Source of the DNA: Candidatus Peribacteria bacterium RIFCSPLOWO2_12_FULL_55_15
Lineage (GTDB): Bacteria > Patescibacteriota > Gracilibacteria > Peribacterales > Peribacteraceae
Assembly: GCA_001789045.1 (NCBI GenBank)
Contig: MFYG01000007.1
Coordinates: forward strand, 1-44,720
Direction of reading: 5' to 3'
Length of the DNA: 44,720 nt
Shown: piece after piece, positions 13,696 through 23,106 of the stretch
Layout: each line of letters opens with the position of its first letter
Numbering within the stretch: the first letter of the stretch is position 1
Made by a program: the position numbers and the translations under genes
The notes under the pieces: model-generated
Database searches by the model: none
What the model saw: the letters and a program-made list of their open reading frames with translations, nothing else
What the model was told of the DNA's origin: nothing

Positions 13696-15707
13696 ACATC
13701 CAGATTCTTCACCGTCTTTGCGTGGGTTTGGATGAACTTGCGGCGGGGAGCCACCTCGGCGCCCATGAGAGTTTGGAAGACGGCATTCGCTTTCTCGGCG
13801 TCTTCCATCGTGACCTGGAGCATAATGCGGTTTTCCGGATCCATCGTCGTCTCCCATAGTTGCACCGCATTCATCTCTCCCAAACCCTTGTAGCGCTGCA
13901 CCCGCACCCCCACCTTCCGTGGTGTCTCCTTTCCCTCTTTTCCTTCAATCTCCTCCCCTTCCCCCTCCTCTATTGCCTCCAACGCCCCTCGCCCTATCCC
14001 CCACTCCCTCAATACACCTCCCTTCTCCACATCACTGAACACATGGCGTACATCCTTCCCCCGTTGGAGACGATAGAGTGGCGGCTGAGCAATGAAGAGA
14101 TGCCCCTTATCGATCAGTTCCGGAAAGTATCGGAAGAAGAGCGTGAGGATGAGCGTGCGAATGTGCGCGCCATCGACGTCGGCGTCCGTCATGATCACGA
14201 CTCGGTGATACCGGAGCTTACTGAAATCCTTCACATCGCCAATTCCGACCCCGAGCGCAATGATGAGCGCCTTGATTTCTGTATTCGCGAGCATCTTATC
14301 GAGACGCGCCTGCTCGACGTTGAGAATCTTCCCCTTCAGCGGGAGGATCGCCTGGAATTTACGATTGCGGCCCTGCTTCGCCGTGCCTCCGGCGCTCTCT
14401 CCCTCGACGATGAAGATTTCGCACTCGGAGGGATCGCGACTTGAGCAATCCGCGAGCTTCCCCGGGAGCGTCATGCCCTCCAAGGCGCCCTTCCGGATCA
14501 CACTATCGCGGGCGGCGCGGGCGGCGAGACGGGCGCGCGACGCGAGGAGACATTTCGCGACGATCTGCTTTGCGTCCCCCGGATGCTCCTCCAAGTACCG
14601 ACCAAGCTCTAAATTCACCACCGTCTCCACGGCAGATTTCATCTCGGCGTTCCCCAGTTTGCTCTTCGTCTGACCTTCAAACTGCGGATCACGCATGCGC
14701 ACGGACACGACGGCCGTGAGACCTTCCCGCACGTCATCCGCCGTCAGATTTTCATCCTTCTCCTTGAGAAGCTGAAACTGCCGCGCATACGCATTGATCG
14801 TCCGCGTGAGCGCGGTCTTGAATCCCGTGAGATGGTGGCCGCCTTCCGCCGTGTGAATGTTGTTCGCAAAACTCCAGACGCACTCCTGGAAGGATTGGCT
14901 GTATTGCAGCGCGACTTCCACCACCCCTTCCGGCGTCTCCTTGAGAAAAGAAATCGCCTCCGAGAGAGCCTCTTGCTCTTCATTGAGATGCACCACATAC
15001 GCACGGATCCCCCCTTCGAATGCGAAACGGTACAGGCGGGGATACTTTTTATCCGCCTCCGGACGCTCCTTGCGGGCATCTATGACGCCGATCGCGACGC
15101 CCTTCGTGAGGTATGCCTGCTGGCGGAGACGCGTGAGGATAATGTCGAGACTCCACTCGATGGTCGCGAAAATCTTCGGATCGGGAGTGAACTCGATCGT
15201 CGTGCCGTGCTTCTCGGTTTTCCCCGTCGAACGAACATCGTGCGCAGGCTTCCCCTGACGGTACTCTTGCACGTATACCTTCCCCTCACGCCGTACTTCC
15301 GCCTTCATCCAACTACTGAGGGCATTCACCACCGATGCACCGACCCCGTGCAATCCGCCGGACACTTTGTAGCCGCTCTGGTCCCCGCCGAATTTCCCTC
15401 CCGCATGGAGCGTCGTGAGTACGACTTCCAGCGCCGGGCGCTTCGCCTGGGGGTGGATGTCCACGGGAATGCCCCGGCCGTTATCTTCCACATTCACCGA
15501 TCCGCCGTCCTGGAGAGTAACCGTAATCTGCGTGCAATACCCCGCCATCGCCTCGTCGATGGCATTGTCGACAATTTCGTAGACGAGATGATGGAGACCG
15601 CGCATGTCCGTCGAACCGATGTACATTCCCGGACGCTTCCGCACAGGCTCCAGGCCCTCGAGGACCTGAATGTGTTCCGCCGTGTATGCACCCTTTGCTG
15701 CAGGCAT
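13692..15707 (-). CDS. gyrB: DNA gyrase subunit B
   Basis: 671 residues from the ATG at 15707, which gives the usual GyrB beginning (AYTAEHIQVLEGLEPVRKRP). Visible motifs are GHKL ATPase (VDNAIDEAMAG, DNGRGIPVDIHP, GLHGVGASVVNALS), TOPRIM (VEGESAGGTAKQGRNRKFQA, MTDADVDGAHIR) and the C-terminal QRYKGLGEMNAVQLWETTMD with VKNLDV at the end. With GyrA it introduces negative supercoils. A Glu/Gly/Lys-rich insert (EEGEGEEIEGKEGKE) sits before the KGLGEMN motif and looks like a short low-complexity expansion. A frame-open extension to 15764 lacks homology. TAGACT lies 7 nt before the ATG, and there is no Shine-Dalgarno. It overlaps hisS tail to tail by four bases. Confidence 0.97.
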   Translation of the reverse strand: MPAAKGAYTAEHIQVLEGLEPVRKRPGMYIGSTDMRGLHHLVYEIVDNAIDEAMAGYCTQITVTLQDGGSVNVEDNGRGIPVDIHPQAKRPALEVVLTTLHAGGKFGGDQSGYKVSGGLHGVGASVVNALSSWMKAEVRREGKVYVQEYRQGKPAHDVRSTGKTEKHGTTIEFTPDPKIFATIEWSLDIILTRLRQQAYLTKGVAIGVIDARKERPEADKKYPRLYRFAFEGGIRAYVVHLNEEQEALSEAISFLKETPEGVVEVALQYSQSFQECVWSFANNIHTAEGGHHLTGFKTALTRTINAYARQFQLLKEKDENLTADDVREGLTAVVSVRMRDPQFEGQTKSKLGNAEMKSAVETVVNLELGRYLEEHPGDAKQIVAKCLLASRARLAARAARDSVIRKGALEGMTLPGKLADCSSRDPSECEIFIVEGESAGGTAKQGRNRKFQAILPLKGKILNVEQARLDKMLANTEIKALIIALGVGIGDVKDFSKLRYHRVVIMTDADVDGAHIRTLILTLFFRYFPELIDKGHLFIAQPPLYRLQRGKDVRHVFSDVEKGGVLREWGIGRGALEAIEEGEGEEIEGKEGKETPRKVGVRVQRYKGLGEMNAVQLWETTMDPENRIMLQVTMEDAEKANAVFQTLMGAEVAPRRKFIQTHAKTVKNLDV

Positions 15708-15795
15708 CCCGGACAGTCTAGTAGAACCGCATCCCCTAATCAAAGCAAATCTCGCACCTTGCATCCCTTACAATCAGCACTACACTGCCTTCGAT

Positions 15796-16134
15796 ATGGA
15801 CGATGCGCAGCAGCCGGCTACCAAGGCAGACATCAGAACACTCAAGGAATATTTTGAAAGAATGATGGATGAGTTCACGGGAAGGATGGATGAGTTCACG
15901 GGAAGGATGGATGAGTTCACGGGAAGGATGGATGAGTTCACGGGAAGGATGGATGAGTTCACGGGAAGGATGGATAGACTCGATCATAAATGGGAAAGAC
16001 TCTACGAAGCCGATGACCAGATTCTGGCAGTACTCACAAATATCGAGAAACGACTGACGCAGAAAGTGGACTCCCATGAGCACCGCATCACGCACCTCGA
16101 GAATCTCGCTGGCGTCGCCTCTCAAAACCTATAA
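15796..16134 (+). CDS. Small coiled-coil protein built on a 7-residue repeat
   Basis: 112 residues. After QPATKADIRTLKEYFERM come five exact copies of the heptad MDEFTGR (residues ~24-58), then MDRLDHKWERL and a second helical segment (EKRLTQKVDSHEHRITHLEN). Seven residues per unit equals two coiled-coil turns, so unit number sets helix length in register. Paralogous in layout to 11911-12177. Function unknown. It is 9 nt upstream of the S21-like gene, and no Shine-Dalgarno is visible. Confidence 0.7.
   Translation: MDDAQQPATKADIRTLKEYFERMMDEFTGRMDEFTGRMDEFTGRMDEFTGRMDEFTGRMDRLDHKWERLYEADDQILAVLTNIEKRLTQKVDSHEHRITHLENLAGVASQNL
15865..15969 (+). repeat. Five tandem 21-bp repeats
   Basis: Five identical copies of ATGGATGAGTTCACGGGAAG + G, in frame, each encoding MDEFTGR. 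The lack of any substitutions points to recent expansion or active homogenisation. Confidence 0.97.
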
Positions 16135-16143
16135 CCTACGCCC

Positions 16144-16359
16144 ATGGCCATCTACGCTATCAAGAAAACAACGGAAACGAACGACGCGCTGCAGCATCGC
16201 TTCAAGAAGCAGGTGCAGAAATCCGGTCTCATCAAGCTCCTCCGCACCCGTGCGGTCCTCCAGCGCCACCCGAACCGGCGCGCGCAGCGCCTTCGCGCCC
16301 TCCATCGGGAACGCCTCCGCGCGGAGAACAAGAAGAAGCAGTTCTATTCGGCGATGTAG
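16144..16359 (+). CDS. rpsU: Ribosomal protein bS21-like
   Basis: 71 residues, the length of bS21, with its layout: a short beta start (MAIYAIKKTTETNDALQ), a basic helix (HRFKKQVQKSGLIKLLRTRAV is the S21 RRFKR..EKAG..E.R region) and a strongly basic C-terminal helix (RRAQRLRALHRERLRAENKKK). bS21 helps the 30S subunit at initiation near the anti-Shine-Dalgarno site, which is interesting where Shine-Dalgarno sites are sparse. The sequence is divergent, so the assignment is good but not certain. The uridine phosphorylase gene starts one base after its stop. Confidence 0.8.
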   Translation: MAIYAIKKTTETNDALQHRFKKQVQKSGLIKLLRTRAVLQRHPNRRAQRLRALHRERLRAENKKKQFYSAM

Positions 16360-16360
16360 T

Positions 16361-17302
16361 GTGAGACTTCCTCTGTTTTCCCACGCCCTGCCCAACGGCA
16401 TCAATCCACGGCTCGCGCATCTCCAGAGCGATCCTCTGTACCACCTCGGCTTCGATAAGGACATGGATCTCGCCGGACTCTTCGGCGACGTGCGCATCGC
16501 CTGCATGGGAGGAAGCGCCGATCGCATGACGCATTTCGCAGAAAGAATTGCGACGGAGATCCCGGAACTTGGCGTCGAGCCTACAAAGCTTCATCCCATC
16601 GGAAAAACCGAGCGCTTCACTCTGCACAAAGTCGGCCCCGTCCTCTCCGTCTCGCACGGCATGGGCATCGGCTCTATCCGGATCCTGCTCCACGAGCTTA
16701 CGAAGCTCCTCTTCTACGCCGGCAACAGCACGCGGGACATCCTCGATCGCGTCGAGTACATCCGAATCGGCACGTCCGGCGGCATCGGCGCCAGGATCGG
16801 ACAGGTCGTCCTCTCCACCCGCGCCATTCATCCTCGCACACTGAAGCCCGTCGATGAAATTTACCGGATGGGACAAACGCACCAATTCCCAACGGAATTC
16901 GACGCCGCGCTCCGCGAACGCATCTACGCCGCGCGGGGCGACATCGAGGTGGTTGTCGGCGATACGCTGGCCGCCAATTGCTTCTACGAGGAGGAACCCA
17001 ACCTCTTCGGCGCCCTGGACGCGGGGTACGGGAAAGCGGAGCAGCGGGAATGGGCGGAAGAATTGAAGCGCCTCGGCATGAAGAATACGGAGATGGAAGC
17101 GACCGCGCTCGCAGGATTCTGCGGCCGGGCGGGAATCGCCGCCGCCGACGTCTGCGCCGTGCTCGACCGCATGGGAGGCCGCGTCACCGCCACCAGGGAG
17201 GAACTCGCCCTGTACTCCGATCGCGCGCAAACCGTCGTTCTTCGCTACCTACGAAGCCGGCTCAAGGATCTCGTGCCCACTACACACCAACCACACCCGT
17301 GA
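16361..17302 (+). CDS. Uridine phosphorylase, eukaryote-like (UPP) type
   Basis: 313 residues from a GTG at 16361, directly after the S21 stop; this start gives the UPP-like N-terminus (NPRLAHLQSDPLYHLGF). Family motifs: FGDVRIACMGGSADRM, KVGPVLSVSHGMGIGSI, LLHELTKLLFYAG, IRIGTSGGIGARIG (phosphate/ribose loop) and NTEMEATALAGF (the Glu-Met-Glu ribose site). These match animal UPP1/UPP2 better than the shorter E. coli Udp as I remember those sequences. It phosphorolyses uridine to uracil and ribose-1-phosphate for salvage. The final ~5 codons (from ~17275) appear to be derived from deoB, see the adjacent pseudogene. Confidence 0.9.
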   Translation: MRLPLFSHALPNGINPRLAHLQSDPLYHLGFDKDMDLAGLFGDVRIACMGGSADRMTHFAERIATEIPELGVEPTKLHPIGKTERFTLHKVGPVLSVSHGMGIGSIRILLHELTKLLFYAGNSTRDILDRVEYIRIGTSGGIGARIGQVVLSTRAIHPRTLKPVDEIYRMGQTHQFPTEFDAALRERIYAARGDIEVVVGDTLAANCFYEEEPNLFGALDAGYGKAEQREWAEELKRLGMKNTEMEATALAGFCGRAGIAAADVCAVLDRMGGRVTATREELALYSDRAQTVVLRYLRSRLKDLVPTTHQPHP

Positions 17303-17504: not shown

Positions 17505-20500
17505 CTATTCTTCATCTGGATACCCCTGACTCATGCGTCTTTTAATGTCCCACATCTCCGCAGCAACTTTCTTTTGGAGCGCACTCGATTTTCCTTTTTC
17601 CAGAAAAGCATTAATGAGGCCATGCTCATCGGGATCCCAACCCGGATCTGTCTCGTATCCGCTCATATTCTTGTTTTCATCAGCGTAGAAAGCTTCTTTG
17701 GGCATCTTGTAATTATCAAGTGCCTTCTTCGTAACCACCTCTACTGTCGGTGGCAAACTACCTCCAAGATAGATCACCGTACAACCAATAGCATCAAGAT
17801 ACGCCCGCATGCTCTCATAGTACGAAGGATCTGCAGCGGCAAGATTTCCAATAACAGGTTTATCACCAACGCATATCATGCGATGATTGTGGAAATGAGA
17901 AAATAAAAGAAAATCTACGAGCGCCATTTGCATCGCCTGACTTGCAAGCAGATCCCTTCCCTGATTTGCCGGATTTCCACCGGAGCCTTTCCCAAAACGC
18001 TCGAGAAGATAGTGTCGCGCAAAAATATTATGTCCTGCCACCTTTTCCGTCATCATGCTCCCCTTATAAACAACACCTTTTCTTGCTCTACTGTATTCAT
18101 AATCATGATAATACGTCTCATAAGTCCCTTCGGACATAAGATCAAGAACAACTTCGAGAGGGTGTTGGTGTGATGTTCCGTACTGCATTAAGGCTTTGTT
18201 ATCTTCATGATTGCCATTCGTGATATGCCACGCTTTTACATTTCTCTTATTCTCTTTCGGCACACAAGAAAGAATATTTCGATTCGTACGTGTTATCCAT
18301 CGATTCTGATCACGAATCTGCGGCAGCCCAAATGGCTCTCCTTCTTGTCCGGCCATGATGTAATTATATCCATGATTCTCATCACCGTTCGCTAGTGCAT
18401 AAACTTCTGGATACTTCGCTGCGATGTCGTGCCAAAACATCGTGAGCATTTTAATGAGGTATTCCGTTCGCGCAGTTATTGAACCAACCTGCCAATCGGA
18501 CGTAAGAAAAATAGCTGCTCGATGCTTCGAGACCTCTGAGAGCGCCATGAGCGTCTCATTATAGATATCGTAACTAAACCGCCCGTCTTTCGAAAAACGC
18601 AGTGCCATCACTCCCGGCGTCACGGGATCTTTGCGATTGAAGAGCGCGCGCCAGAGATTATCGTCCTGAATTTTTGCGAATGAACTTAAGTCCATTCGCC
18701 CCCGACGCAAGGTTGGCGTGGAGTAGATAAGGCTCCCATGATCGCCTCCAACCATTTCTGCACTCAAAAGATTTTGGTCGAACGTTCCCCAAACGTCCGG
18801 CGGTTCATCGTCGATGCGCGATGTTTTACCCAAACGCTTGCGAATATTGCGCTTCGCATGCATGTGCCCCACACGATCACGAAGTGAATCGAGAGGATCT
18901 TTGGAAGCGCTGCTCTCTGTCCCGCGCACAGAACGACTCCCTCTTATTGTGATATCCTCCCCTCCTTTCCTTTTCAAAAGTGCCTGATAGTCATCTACAA
19001 TGATAATCTCTTCATCCTCAAGTCGCCTCCCCGGTAGGGGAATTTTTGTGACATCGATCACGCTCTTTATTTCGTCACTCGGTTCATTGCCTCCCACTAA
19101 ATCATCGTATGCCTTCTGGAGAGAAAGAAATTCATCAAACCCCAGTTCACGCCCCACCTTACAGGAATACGGATAGGCAACATCCCACCAAAATTCGTGC
19201 AAATAGGTATAGAGTGATGTCTGACGCACTTGATCAACTTGCTTATAGTTGATGATACCTGCTCCAGCTGCCTGACTAACAAGACTGGGACCGGTCGCAC
19301 TGGTCGCGCGACCACGCATGGCATCACGTTCGGCGCGTTCGCGCTGTCGTTCCAGTTCAAGGAGGCGAAGAGCAGTATCCATTGCGTAATGTTCGATGGA
19401 CAGCTCATCTTCGTGACTCATGTTGTAGACCACAGTAATGCCATACTCTTTCTTAAGCTTGAGACACAACCGAAAGAACTCATTCTCGGATTCATACTGA
19501 ACATCTATCGATGTTACAGCAAGGCGTTGCCGTTTCTTCCTTTGATATTTGTAATTTCCATGCTTCCCAGCGTGAATGACAATCATCGTCGGAATGTGCT
19601 TCTTCTCATTCTTTGAAAAGACGTTTTTTTGCAAGTACGCAAGGAAATCATCCATAAACTCTGGATCATAACACGCATGTCCTAGCTGCATATTCGTAAA
19701 ATGCATAACGAGCGGCTCACGTCCTTCTTCCGTCTCACTTGTAAATTGTTTGAGCACACGCTTTGCGTCGTATTTTCTATAATACTCCTTTAACTTCCTC
19801 ATGAACGCTTCCGGTGTCTCTTCGGAGAGAGAATCCACTTCGTCAACCAGTTTTTTCGCAAGCGAACTTTTTTCTTCCATCGCTCTCACGACAACATCCT
19901 TCACATGTTGCATGCGTGTAAGCATTGCAGAACTCGGAGCACGTCCTTGGCAGATTTTTTCATCAAGAGAATAGACAGCAGGTTTATCTCCTCCACCTTC
20001 CTTCTTCTTCACACATCCTGCCTTCTCATAGGAAAGCATCATCTGTTCAGCAATTTCAGAAGGAATACCAAGAATAGTGTCGTTGCCACGTAAGTACGCC
20101 ACACTCATCTTCTGATTGGGACTCGTCGCCACCCCCATAGAAACAAAATGCCCCAATTGATCATACAAACTGGCATCAAGGACGCTTTCCAATTCTTCAG
20201 GCGTGTACGTAAACACTGCAGGATCACGACACACCATCGCTTCTTCACCATGTTTACTTGATAAAAATGCAATTTTCTTTTGGCTACACAGAATACCGAG
20301 AGCCCATTCAAAGCGATCTCTTTCAATGTGTGCGCCGCACTGATGGCGTCGCTCGAAGAGTTCCTTTTCAAGATAAAACGGTTTCTTCTTCCCGCTACGC
20401 CCGAAGAGACCGAGAATTTTTTCAGGCAATTGCTGCTCCTGTTTGCTCCGGCATTCCATGTCAATTTCCGCATAGAAAGCATCCATAGTCACGACTGGAT

Positions 20501-21218
20501 CAAATGACTGTTCGTGCTTCTTCTGCATAATATCTCTCAGGGCAGCACTGACGTCCTTCCGTATTTGTAAAAGGGTACTCAGAGCTGTCGCCTGCTTCGA
20601 TACACGACCTTCGAGGGCTTCCTCTACTCTCTTCGGTTTTTCCATCTCGAGCGCCTGTAATTGCAAACCCAACTCAACATCACGCACAACGATCATGTGA
20701 CGCTGGTGTCCATCCTCTTCTTTAACAGAATGTATACTTCTGATAATCCGCTCAGGATCTTTGCCTTGCACACCCACCTCACGGACAAGAAGGACATGGT
20801 ACTGCTTCAGTTCAGCAATGCCGAGCGGCACATGTGTGTCGTCTACTTTCTTCTGCACGGTATCGAGAAACTTTGGTTCCAGCGTCTTCAGCTTTTCCGA
20901 ATCTTCCTTCTTCTGTAATGAGACAAGTAATGCTACGACCTCTTCCCTCAAAAAATCACGAACGCTCTCATATGATGCAATAAACTGTTCATCGGTCAGG
21001 GAAAGCTGCACAAACAATTGCCGACGTCTCTCACCAGTTTTCTGTTGTTCCTGCACTCCACTACCCGATTTATAAATCTTCATCAATCGTTCAACAAATT
21101 CCCCATCATACCTTCGTGGCTCATAATCCAATCCGCCACTGGCATTACCTTTCTCCGGGGCTACTGTGCCCCCCTCCTGTATTTCATCCTGTGATCCTTC
21201 AGGAGAATCCAGAGGCAT
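17505..21218 (-). CDS. Large protein with a duplicated metallophosphoesterase-like domain, unknown
   Basis: 1237 residues, no signal peptide or membrane helix. Residues 1-480 are helical and charged, with a possible winged-helix region (~300-430). Residues ~500-610 contain HFTNMQLGH, VIHAGKHGNYKY and VVYNMSHEDE; residues ~900-1130 contain LTSDWQVG, LANGDENHGYNY, HITNGNHEDN and FSHFHNHRM. The second set fits the calcineurin-like phosphoesterase order (D-x-H/Q, GD-x-x, GNHE, GHxH), while the first aligns to it spot for spot but has lost metal ligands (SD to TN, GD to AG), i.e. a degenerate duplicate. Substrate unknown; nuclease or nucleotide phosphodiesterase activity would be guesses. The DNA looks more A+T-rich than its neighbours, hinting at transfer. 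TACGAT lies 8 nt before the ATG. Confidence 0.75.
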   Translation of the reverse strand: MPLDSPEGSQDEIQEGGTVAPEKGNASGGLDYEPRRYDGEFVERLMKIYKSGSGVQEQQKTGERRRQLFVQLSLTDEQFIASYESVRDFLREEVVALLVSLQKKEDSEKLKTLEPKFLDTVQKKVDDTHVPLGIAELKQYHVLLVREVGVQGKDPERIIRSIHSVKEEDGHQRHMIVVRDVELGLQLQALEMEKPKRVEEALEGRVSKQATALSTLLQIRKDVSAALRDIMQKKHEQSFDPVVTMDAFYAEIDMECRSKQEQQLPEKILGLFGRSGKKKPFYLEKELFERRHQCGAHIERDRFEWALGILCSQKKIAFLSSKHGEEAMVCRDPAVFTYTPEELESVLDASLYDQLGHFVSMGVATSPNQKMSVAYLRGNDTILGIPSEIAEQMMLSYEKAGCVKKKEGGGDKPAVYSLDEKICQGRAPSSAMLTRMQHVKDVVVRAMEEKSSLAKKLVDEVDSLSEETPEAFMRKLKEYYRKYDAKRVLKQFTSETEEGREPLVMHFTNMQLGHACYDPEFMDDFLAYLQKNVFSKNEKKHIPTMIVIHAGKHGNYKYQRKKRQRLAVTSIDVQYESENEFFRLCLKLKKEYGITVVYNMSHEDELSIEHYAMDTALRLLELERQRERAERDAMRGRATSATGPSLVSQAAGAGIINYKQVDQVRQTSLYTYLHEFWWDVAYPYSCKVGRELGFDEFLSLQKAYDDLVGGNEPSDEIKSVIDVTKIPLPGRRLEDEEIIIVDDYQALLKRKGGEDITIRGSRSVRGTESSASKDPLDSLRDRVGHMHAKRNIRKRLGKTSRIDDEPPDVWGTFDQNLLSAEMVGGDHGSLIYSTPTLRRGRMDLSSFAKIQDDNLWRALFNRKDPVTPGVMALRFSKDGRFSYDIYNETLMALSEVSKHRAAIFLTSDWQVGSITARTEYLIKMLTMFWHDIAAKYPEVYALANGDENHGYNYIMAGQEGEPFGLPQIRDQNRWITRTNRNILSCVPKENKRNVKAWHITNGNHEDNKALMQYGTSHQHPLEVVLDLMSEGTYETYYHDYEYSRARKGVVYKGSMMTEKVAGHNIFARHYLLERFGKGSGGNPANQGRDLLASQAMQMALVDFLLFSHFHNHRMICVGDKPVIGNLAAADPSYYESMRAYLDAIGCTVIYLGGSLPPTVEVVTKKALDNYKMPKEAFYADENKNMSGYETDPGWDPDEHGLINAFLEKGKSSALQKKVAAEMWDIKRRMSQGYPDEE

Positions 21219-21411: not shown

Positions 21412-23070
21412 CTATCGCCGGAGAAGATCGAGCGCGCGTAGCATCTGGTCATCCCGGTCACTCTGCCCCTCGACAAGAATATCAGGGATGATTCCCTTCC
21501 CCTCAATCTTGCCACCAGACGGCGTGAGCCACTCGGCAACTGTGAGCTTGAGACTCGACTGATCGGTGAAATCTATGAGCTGCTGCACCGTCCCCTTCCC
21601 AAATGTCGTCTCCCCAATAATTGTCGCTCGCTTTGCGTCCTGTAATGCGCCAGCGACGATCTCCGACGCGCTGGCAGAACCCTTATTCACAAGAACGACC
21701 ATGCGCGTCTCCGGATCAATGACCGGCGGATGACCGGTCACCTCATTGTACGTCCCATCCAGCGCCGCAATGGAAGCAACTGTGCTCCCCTCAGGGAGAA
21801 AACAGCTCAGAACCACACTCGCAGCATGCAGAAGTCCACCAGGATTATCACGCATATCCAGAATGATTCCCTGCGGATGACTATCCCGAACCTTCTCGAT
21901 GAGCGAACGGAACTCTTTCTCCGTGGTTTGGCCAAATTGCACGAGCTTTACGACCGCAATATCTTTCACATAGGAAAGTTCGATCTCCGGTACGCGGACG
22001 GTATCCCTCTCAACTGAAACTTCTAGTTCACTCCCATTGCGACTGATCTTTAACTTCGCCATAGAACCTTTTGGTCCTCGTACTTTCCCCACCGCATCGA
22101 GGAACCCTAATCCATTTAGCGTCTCTCCACCGACTTCGAGAATCTGATCGCCCGGCAATAACCCAGCCTTCTTCGCAGGGGATCCAGGGAGTGGGGCCAC
22201 AATGGTAAGAACACCATTGATGAACTCCACTTGCGCCCCGATCCCCGACACCTCGCCCTGAATTTGTGTCTGGAACTCCTGCGCGGGAGTGGGTCGCATG
22301 AATATCGTGTAGGGATCCTTGAGAGACTTCACGAGAGCATCAATCGCGCTGTAGACCGCTTCGTCCCCCTTCAGTTTTTCTTTTTTATAGAGGTAGAGCT
22401 GGTTGATGATGCGCCAGACACTCTTAAGCACGTCCTCTCTCGGCATCTCGGCAACAGGAACGGTTTCGAGACGGATATGGACGACCGGTACCTCTGACCT
22501 CTGGAACTTCTTCGAAATGGGTGCTTCCCCTTGCACACGCTGAAGAAGCAGCGTCGCTTCCTTTCCTGTGAGCGCCCTCTGGACACCAAAGATATTTTGG
22601 CGCAGAGGATCAAGCCAGCCCCTTTCCACTGCAATATGCACTGCCGCTTCCAGCTTCCCCCCTTTTGCAACATCACCAAAATGTGGGCCAGTCACCCGTG
22701 GCTTCAGATTGCGGAGCGCCACGACAACCTGCAGCGCTTCGCCACGCGTTATCCCCCGCGCATTTCTGAACTCCTCTCCAAATGCCTCGAGCGCTCCGTG
22801 CTTCAGAGCCACCTGAATGTAGGGGAGAAGATTCCGCGGGACCGGGCGGTTAAAGGGCAACCTAACGCGCTTTCCCTTCTCTACATCGAACCCGGAAAGA
22901 ATGACTGCGCTCCGCAAAAATTCTCCGCGTGAGACGACAGCGTTCTCCCCTACCTGGAGCACATCTTTTACTGCTATCGCCCCTACCCCCGCCGGTGATA
23001 AGAGCGTGATGCCAATGATGAAGACTCCCATCATGCGGGAGAATATTGTTTGCATAAGGAACCCGCACAT
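21412..23070 (-). CDS. C-terminal processing protease (CtpA/S41) with N-terminal SLH-like region
   Basis: 552 residues from the ATG at 23070 (GGAAGG 7 nt upstream); later ATGs at 23055 and 23037 are possible. A signal peptide (MMGVFIIGITLLSPAGVGA) is followed by ~150 residues with SLH-like repeats (SRGEFLRSAVIL, TRGEALQVVVAL, LTGKEATLLLQ), then a PDZ domain (GEVSGIGAQVEF, GLLPGDQILEVGG) and the S41 catalytic core. NKGSASASEIVAGAL holds the nucleophile Ser, and GETTFGKGTVQ the general-base Lys. Such proteases trim exported proteins at the wall side. It ends with the protein DRDDQMLRALDLLRR. An SLH anchor on a Ctp protease is also known elsewhere. Confidence 0.94.
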   Translation of the reverse strand: MCGFLMQTIFSRMMGVFIIGITLLSPAGVGAIAVKDVLQVGENAVVSRGEFLRSAVILSGFDVEKGKRVRLPFNRPVPRNLLPYIQVALKHGALEAFGEEFRNARGITRGEALQVVVALRNLKPRVTGPHFGDVAKGGKLEAAVHIAVERGWLDPLRQNIFGVQRALTGKEATLLLQRVQGEAPISKKFQRSEVPVVHIRLETVPVAEMPREDVLKSVWRIINQLYLYKKEKLKGDEAVYSAIDALVKSLKDPYTIFMRPTPAQEFQTQIQGEVSGIGAQVEFINGVLTIVAPLPGSPAKKAGLLPGDQILEVGGETLNGLGFLDAVGKVRGPKGSMAKLKISRNGSELEVSVERDTVRVPEIELSYVKDIAVVKLVQFGQTTEKEFRSLIEKVRDSHPQGIILDMRDNPGGLLHAASVVLSCFLPEGSTVASIAALDGTYNEVTGHPPVIDPETRMVVLVNKGSASASEIVAGALQDAKRATIIGETTFGKGTVQQLIDFTDQSSLKLTVAEWLTPSGGKIEGKGIIPDILVEGQSDRDDQMLRALDLLRR

Positions 23071-23106
23071 TCTACTGCCTTCCACTCGTTCAGCAAGCTC
23101 CCATAG

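Follow-up and report, generated by a model that had tools for sequence, protein, structure and literature searches.

A tandem pseudo-metallophosphoesterase and metallophosphoesterase protein of Candidatus Peribacteria as a predicted nuclease of the PolD-DP1/Mre11 branch

DP1 of the archaeal D-family DNA polymerase (PolD), which is active, and the B-subunits of the eukaryotic DNA polymerases, which are dead, are the best-known case of a metallophosphoesterase (MPE) nuclease turned scaffold in replication. Mre11, another nuclease with this fold, works as paired MPE domains. The B-subunits are thought to be scaffolds after loss of their catalytic residues (PMC4996933). Here, a gene is described whose product would hold both MPE states in a single chain, in bacterial lineages whose genomes are very small. 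It is found in contig MFYG01000007.1 (assembly GCA_001789045.1) of Candidatus Peribacteria bacterium RIFCSPLOWO2_12_FULL_55_15, whose genome has 0.9 Mb; the 44,720 nucleotides of this contig that were analysed are called the window. In the literature on metallophosphoesterases of Patescibacteria, on tandem dead and live MPE domains and on DP1 in the Candidate Phyla Radiation, no description of the family was found, most subscription journals being outside the search. Its parts are known; what is new, to our knowledge, is that one bacterial chain combines a dead and a live DP1/Mre11-like copy, with a fixed D-x-Q metal-binding motif and a winged-helix-like front.

17505..21218, minus strand: whole gene, encoding the tandem pseudo-MPE and MPE protein of 1237 residues (equal extent in the homologues L002 and L005)

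The most probable reading, to which we give a probability of roughly 0.55, is that this protein would be a cytoplasmic nuclease of the PolD-DP1/Mre11 branch with a tandem-duplicated catalytic domain. Its fold and architecture are well supported by the predicted structures; its substrate and cellular role we infer. In Pfam, NCBIfam and PADLOC, the window protein has no match above cut-off. It shows neither a signal peptide nor a membrane segment, and none is consistent across the family; a secreted UshA-like nucleotidase was set aside for lack of a signal peptide. Conservation was assessed over 15 homologues, which come from three or more distant groups of bacteria and of which some are only ~20-30% identical. 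The initial annotation, made from the sequence alone, had described three motif blocks that recur twice, and all the motifs that it quoted are present in the 1237-residue open reading frame (ORF) with a similar spacing: ~42 residues between motifs I and II in the central half and 38 in the C-terminal half, and ~50 and 57, respectively, between motifs II and III.

17508..18548, minus strand: intact MPE domain, residues 891-1237 (VIA-align Z 16.7 to PolD DP1 6hmf_A; orthologue L003 over the Pfam Metallophos gathering score)
18480..18500, minus strand: motif I SDWQVGS, residues 907-913, with D908 and Q910 (D-x-Q invariant in 15 homologues)
18360..18389, minus strand: motif II NGDENHGYNY, residues 944-953, with D946 (conservation alignment)
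18198..18218, minus strand: motif III NGNHEDN, residues 1001-1007, with ligand N1003 and catalytic H1004 (conservation alignment)
18012..18014, minus strand: motif IV, H1069 (invariant in 15 homologues)
17883..17900, minus strand: motif V SHFHNH, residues 1107-1112, with H1108 and H1110 (conservation alignment)

In the C-terminal half, D908, Q910, G945-D946, N1003-H1004-E1005, H1069, H1108 and H1110 do not vary in any of the 15 homologues. The metal ligands of DP1 are D360, H362, D404, N450, H497, H560 and H562, and its catalytic residue is H451 (PMC10721889). In the alignment, these ligands map in order to D908, Q910, D946, N1003, H1069, H1108 and H1110, and H451 maps to H1004; the letters of DP1 were taken from the PDB record, located by a query with a DP1 stretch. 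Six of the seven ligands and the catalytic His are thus kept in the whole set, and the seventh is always Gln. Orthologue L003 reaches 22.8 bits with PF00149 (cut-off 21.5) over nearly the whole profile, and the window protein itself is unmatched. Fold matches and residue invariance both point to an MPE fold with a metal centre made up of the conserved GD, GNH, H and GHxH motifs, in agreement with the earlier proposal of a calcineurin-like phosphoesterase. The textbook motif I, D-x-H, which is usual although not universal in the superfamily, is replaced by D-x-Q in 15 of 15 homologues. D-x-Q had been called unusual, which is right with respect to the textbook motif, but it is fixed in this family and is also found in gp45 of Streptomyces phage R4, annotated as an exonuclease (PHROG 284; L099 1988-3193); a related Bastillevirinae phage protein has D-x-H, not D-x-Q. 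The presence of Gln instead of the first His ligand in every homologue might be taken as a mark of activity loss, with both MPE copies non-catalytic and the protein acting as a scaffold or nucleic-acid binder. This is improbable, since the other ligands and the catalytic His stay invariant at only ~20-30% identity, the exonuclease-annotated phage protein shares D-x-Q, and Dbr1 is an active MPE despite a different altered motif I ligand (PMC4176325).

18549..19751, minus strand: degenerate MPE domain (pseudo-enzyme), residues 490-890 (VIA-align Z 12.6 to PolD DP1 8ppt_A and Z 12.2 to the DNA polymerase delta (Pol delta) B-subunit 3e0j_E; ligands lost)
19677..19703, minus strand: degenerate motif I HFTNMQLGH, residues 506-514 (conservation alignment)
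19551..19583, minus strand: degenerate motif II IVIHAGKHGNY, residues 546-556 (conservation alignment)
19407..19427, minus strand: degenerate motif III YNMSHED, residues 598-604 (conservation alignment)

The central half shows N, E or D at ligand column 509, L, Q or R at 511, small or hydrophobic residues at 551, S or G at 601, and D, H, N or Q at 602. In the 14 homologues that extend over them, columns 509, 511, 551 and 601 carry no ligand, except for Asp509 in two. Because these columns carry non-ligands, the alignment indicates that metal binding of the central half is lost family-wide. This half has invariant residues of its own (Q574, D604, G689, E696, L700 and D743) and is therefore under selection and maintained for some role. 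The central NMSHEDE motif is present as first reported, but its His is not conserved (relatives have Q, D or N), and the resemblance to the C-terminal motif is therefore in part peculiar to the window protein. Profile-profile comparison of the two halves places motif I on motif I and motif II on motif II with an E-value of 0.003, which alone is suggestive. The motif recurrence is nevertheless more than chance, because the C-terminal motifs are invariant, the halves match each other at this E-value and both predicted halves map onto the same solved chains. Conservation and both predicted folds therefore agree with the pair of an active-looking and a degenerate MPE domain that had been proposed.

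The AlphaFold models were built template-free. The core model, residues 480-1237, has a mean predicted local distance difference test score (pLDDT) of 80 and a predicted template modelling score (pTM) of 0.84, and the latter suggests a defined relative placement of the two domains. Its best matches among solved structures are PolD DP1 chains (Foldseek E 2e-8). The C-terminal half aligns with DP1 by VIA-align at Z 16.7 (3.3 A, 235 residues), followed by an archaeal phosphodiesterase (Z 15.5), the Pol delta B-subunit (14.9), Vps29 (~14) and Mre11 (~13); E. coli 5'-nucleotidase is among the weaker matches. The second model, residues 1-900, has pLDDT 72 and pTM 0.45, and its residues 488-891 match DP1 at Z 12.6 over 231 residues, the Pol delta B-subunit at Z 12.2 and other MPE folds at Z 8-11; the Foldseek E-values of this model are not significant, and the central-domain result is that of VIA-align on the Foldseek candidates. 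Chain 5ihe_A is matched by the C-terminal half at Z 16.6 (234 residues) and by the central half at Z 12.1 (231 residues). The top matches of the central domain are thus MPE folds, and the two regions, one of which might have turned out to have another fold, map onto the same DP1 chains. Among viral fold neighbours, several are annotated as DNA polymerase II small subunit. At the profile level, the more specific matches are nucleases as well: Thermotoga maritima SbcD/Mre11 (E 0.001), NCBIfam DP1 (E 6e-4) and, over the MPE domain, the PHROGs exonuclease family phrog_284 (E 5e-12 in L003 and a weak 0.0016 in the window protein, residues 1001-1125); the alignment with a phage calcineurin-like MPE has E 7.5e-6. 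The role in nucleic acid or nucleotide processing suggested earlier is borne out insofar as the closest matches, by fold and by profile, are nucleases (DP1, Mre11/SbcD and phage Mre11-like exonucleases).

PolD DP1, the archaeal 3'-5' proofreading exonuclease (5ihe, 6hmf, 8ppt), is the nearest MPE fold for both halves. The catalytic half shares with it the motif order, six of the seven ligands, the catalytic His and similar stretches after motifs II and V; it differs in its ~19% identity, the change of H362 to Gln, the two MPE domains per chain, the bacterial host and the absence of DP2. Given that both halves match DP1 best in structure, the protein might be the small subunit of a bacterial D-family-like DNA polymerase and proofread in replication with a polymerase partner, but this is very improbable. 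DP2 (TIGR00354) is found in none of nine carrier genomes, and the same search is positive in three archaeal controls; the secondary structure of neither model shows the five-stranded barrel of an OB domain before motif I, a DP1 trait; and near relatives live without the gene. The best family member reaches 18.9 bits with NCBIfam DP1, whose cut-off is 445. A PolD small subunit proper was set aside for the lack of DP2 and OB domain and for these scores far under cut-off. Mre11/SbcD (2q8u, 4tug, 6s85) is alike in fold and metal centre, with profile similarity at E ~0.001, but it is a homodimer of two active copies that acts with Rad50/SbcC, whereas here a dead and a live copy share one chain. No SbcC-like gene is recognised among the neighbours scanned, no genome-wide search having been made. 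SbcD (TIGR00619) has no match in seven Patescibacteria carriers, so the window-type gene is itself unrecognised by this profile, and an SbcD orthologue was dropped as an identity for it; a separate SbcD is present in both Melainabacteria carriers searched. The B-subunits of the eukaryotic DNA polymerases delta, epsilon, alpha and zeta have a ligand-less MPE fold like the central half, but they form dead subunits of their own and carry an OB domain, and here the dead copy is fused to the live one. The PHROG 284 phage Mre11-like exonucleases, such as Streptomyces phage R4 gp45, are the best sequence-profile match and share D-x-Q; they are phage-encoded, have ~400 residues and a single MPE domain, and are ~20% identical.

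20412..21116, minus strand: helical front, residues 35-269, in Peribacteria only (AlphaFold secondary structure; alignment)
19959..20411, minus strand: two winged-helix-like modules, residues 270-420 (H-H-H-E-E pattern, weak Foldseek matches; equivalent stretch in L013)

The core common to all homologues has ~750 residues and corresponds to ~490-1237 of the window protein. The front part of ~480 residues belongs to the Peribacteria members, and a stretch equivalent to residues 255-480 is also found in an uncultured bin. The model shows helices up to ~269 and then helices plus two strands at 284-330 and at 349-418, a typical winged-helix pattern; this agrees with the helical front first described and adds two winged-helix-like modules at ~270-420, which are proposed with modest confidence. 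In fold comparison, this part comes closest to tandem winged-helix proteins (an RNA polymerase III subunit and ESCRT-II) and to MarR-type regulators, with E-values of at least 0.014. DNA binding by the front part is considered likely.

As a DP1/Mre11-like nuclease, the protein would use its C-terminal copy to hydrolyse phosphodiester bonds at the 3' ends of nucleic acids with two metals; the metal site in contact with Gln910 may have a changed preference. The degenerate copy would serve as an internal partner, comparable to an inactive subunit in an Mre11-type dimer or to a eukaryotic polymerase B-subunit, which may hold the chain together and position the DNA as a scaffold or DNA clamp, and the winged helices may recruit duplex DNA. 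In the cell, the protein would serve DNA-end processing or repair; the carriers have streamlined genomes, and the Patescibacteria among them that were tested lack SbcD. Several points weigh against this proposal. The MPE fold serves many substrates, so a nuclease-like predicted fold alone is no proof of nuclease activity. With the first His ligand missing in every homologue, catalysis might be weakened or altered. None of the conserved neighbours has a function in DNA repair or replication. The winged-helix call depends on the model with pTM 0.45 and on insignificant fold matches, and the front part is absent from the Melainabacteria and Saccharibacteria members. A more specific and tentative version is that of a bacterial single-chain pseudo-dimer, made of a DP1/Mre11-type nuclease and its dead duplicate with a Gln metal centre, which would be the main 3'-end nuclease of some Patescibacteria. 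If true, it would be a bacterial counterpart of the eukaryotic step from DP1 nuclease to dead polymerase B-subunits. The protein is in any case a compact system in which to ask how a live MPE copy profits from a dead one and whether D-x-Q affects the choice of metal or substrate.

The family is very patchy, with 1-3% of the genomes in three distant groups: the gene is present in four of 353 genomes of the host's class (Peribacteria), four of 295 sampled in the Saccharibacteria class and six of 240 sampled in the Melainabacteria class, and one further homologue belongs to the unclassified, uncultured bin. Named matches are to Candidatus Peribacteria, Peregrinibacteria, Saccharibacteria, Melainabacteria and the uncultured bin, and close relatives without the gene exist. 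Trees of both halves show the same broad groups, and this concordance indicates that the live-plus-dead arrangement is older than its spread over lineages. A later event is seen in the catalytic half.

17619..18941, minus strand: segment exchanged with the G005 lineage, residues ~760-1200 (amino-acid and fourfold-site identity, vs L002)

Between the window protein and that of genome G005, residues 760-1200 show 94% amino-acid and 61% fourfold-site identity, with a breakpoint near residue 760, whereas identity over the first 760 residues is 58% and that at their fourfold sites 25-34%, which is near random. The S41 proteins of both genomes, with 54% identity and 33% at fourfold sites, are like the first 760 residues. 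G005 and G193 belong to the same genus, yet their catalytic halves are only ~54% identical. The split between 94% and 58%, together with this divergence of G193, indicates that the catalytic half was swapped between genera well after they split. The gene has 46.3% GC and the remaining window 56.8%; stretches of 3714 bases across the window have a mean of 56.2% (standard deviation 3.2%) and the gene is about the lowest of its length, so the AT-richness noted initially is real. Patchiness, recent intergeneric exchange, AT-richness and the kinship with the phage exonucleases of phrog_284 would suit a mobile or defence-type nuclease, passed among lineages and targeting foreign DNA. This is unlikely: the PADLOC defence models give only a weak partial match to REase_II (E 0.005) in one of ten members, no defence or mobility genes are recognised adjacent, and the same locus lies beside S41 in two genera. 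Moreover, searches of 50,697 phage and 72,556 plasmid records give no full-family match and IMG/VR viral-contig scans (protein and two alignments) no relative, in each case at the sensitivity used.

21412..23085, minus strand: S41 protease gene, flanking context, not part of the system
16400..17302, start approximate, plus strand: uridine phosphorylase gene, convergent context (TIGR01719 from residue 110 of ORF 16076-17302)

Genome G013, from a different Peribacteria genus, keeps the order S41, MPE gene and uridine phosphorylase, with a phosphopentomutase added; its MPE protein is only ~30% identical to the window protein and its copy is not especially AT-rich. S41 and the stretch with the ribosomal protein gene bS21 are close together in many of the relatives that lack the gene. 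The gene may already have occupied this site when the two genera diverged, and independent arrival at a common site would also be compatible. The initial suggestion that the gene was acquired fits the patchy family and the recently exchanged half, but the same neighbours and the ordinary composition in G013 suggest that it is not a fresh arrival at the locus.

These neighbours bear on the main rival to a DP1/Mre11-branch nuclease, in which the protein would be a nucleotidase or small-molecule phosphodiesterase of the cytoplasm and would serve nucleoside salvage, the nucleosides that it releases passing to ribose 5-phosphate via uridine phosphorylase and phosphopentomutase. Uridine phosphorylase adjoins the gene in the window and is near it in G013, with phosphopentomutase between them, the weaker fold matches include E. 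coli 5'-nucleotidase, and in Saccharibacteria a divergent HTH-NUDIX gene is beside the MPE gene in all four loci (~42% identical), possibly a nucleotide-sensing regulator:

L015 4102-4773: HTH-NUDIX gene
L035 11189-11869: HTH-NUDIX gene
L036 7145-7861: HTH-NUDIX gene
L037 7325-7978: HTH-NUDIX gene

Salvage is nonetheless rather unlikely, since these neighbours are tail-to-tail with the MPE gene and share no operon with it, such genes are not recognised near it in other lineages, DP1 and Mre11 fit better than nucleotidases, and neither a dead twin nor winged helices would be of evident use to a nucleotidase. No neighbour is common to all lineages. In Melainabacteria, a 2OG-Fe(II) oxygenase gene is near the MPE gene in all three loci (L012 7376-9539, L014 12209-14524 and L011 8356-9633), a gene of 330-342 residues without Pfam match is found in two loci, and an ABC transporter and a LeuA-type synthase come next in L011 and L012.

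Past uridine phosphorylase, the window contains bS21 and gyrB. ORF 16076-17302 (408 residues) is over-long, and uridine phosphorylase probably begins near 16400. The 71-residue ORF 16144-16359 (plus strand), which overlaps the first part of the 408-residue ORF, we take by eye to be ribosomal protein bS21; the 'protein' matches of relatives to the front of the 408-residue ORF often carry stops and reflect conservation of bS21 at the DNA level. Between gyrB and bS21, tandem 21-base repeats at 15860-15975 lie in a small coiled-coil-like ORF, 15670-16134 (plus strand), and encode (MDEFTGR)n.

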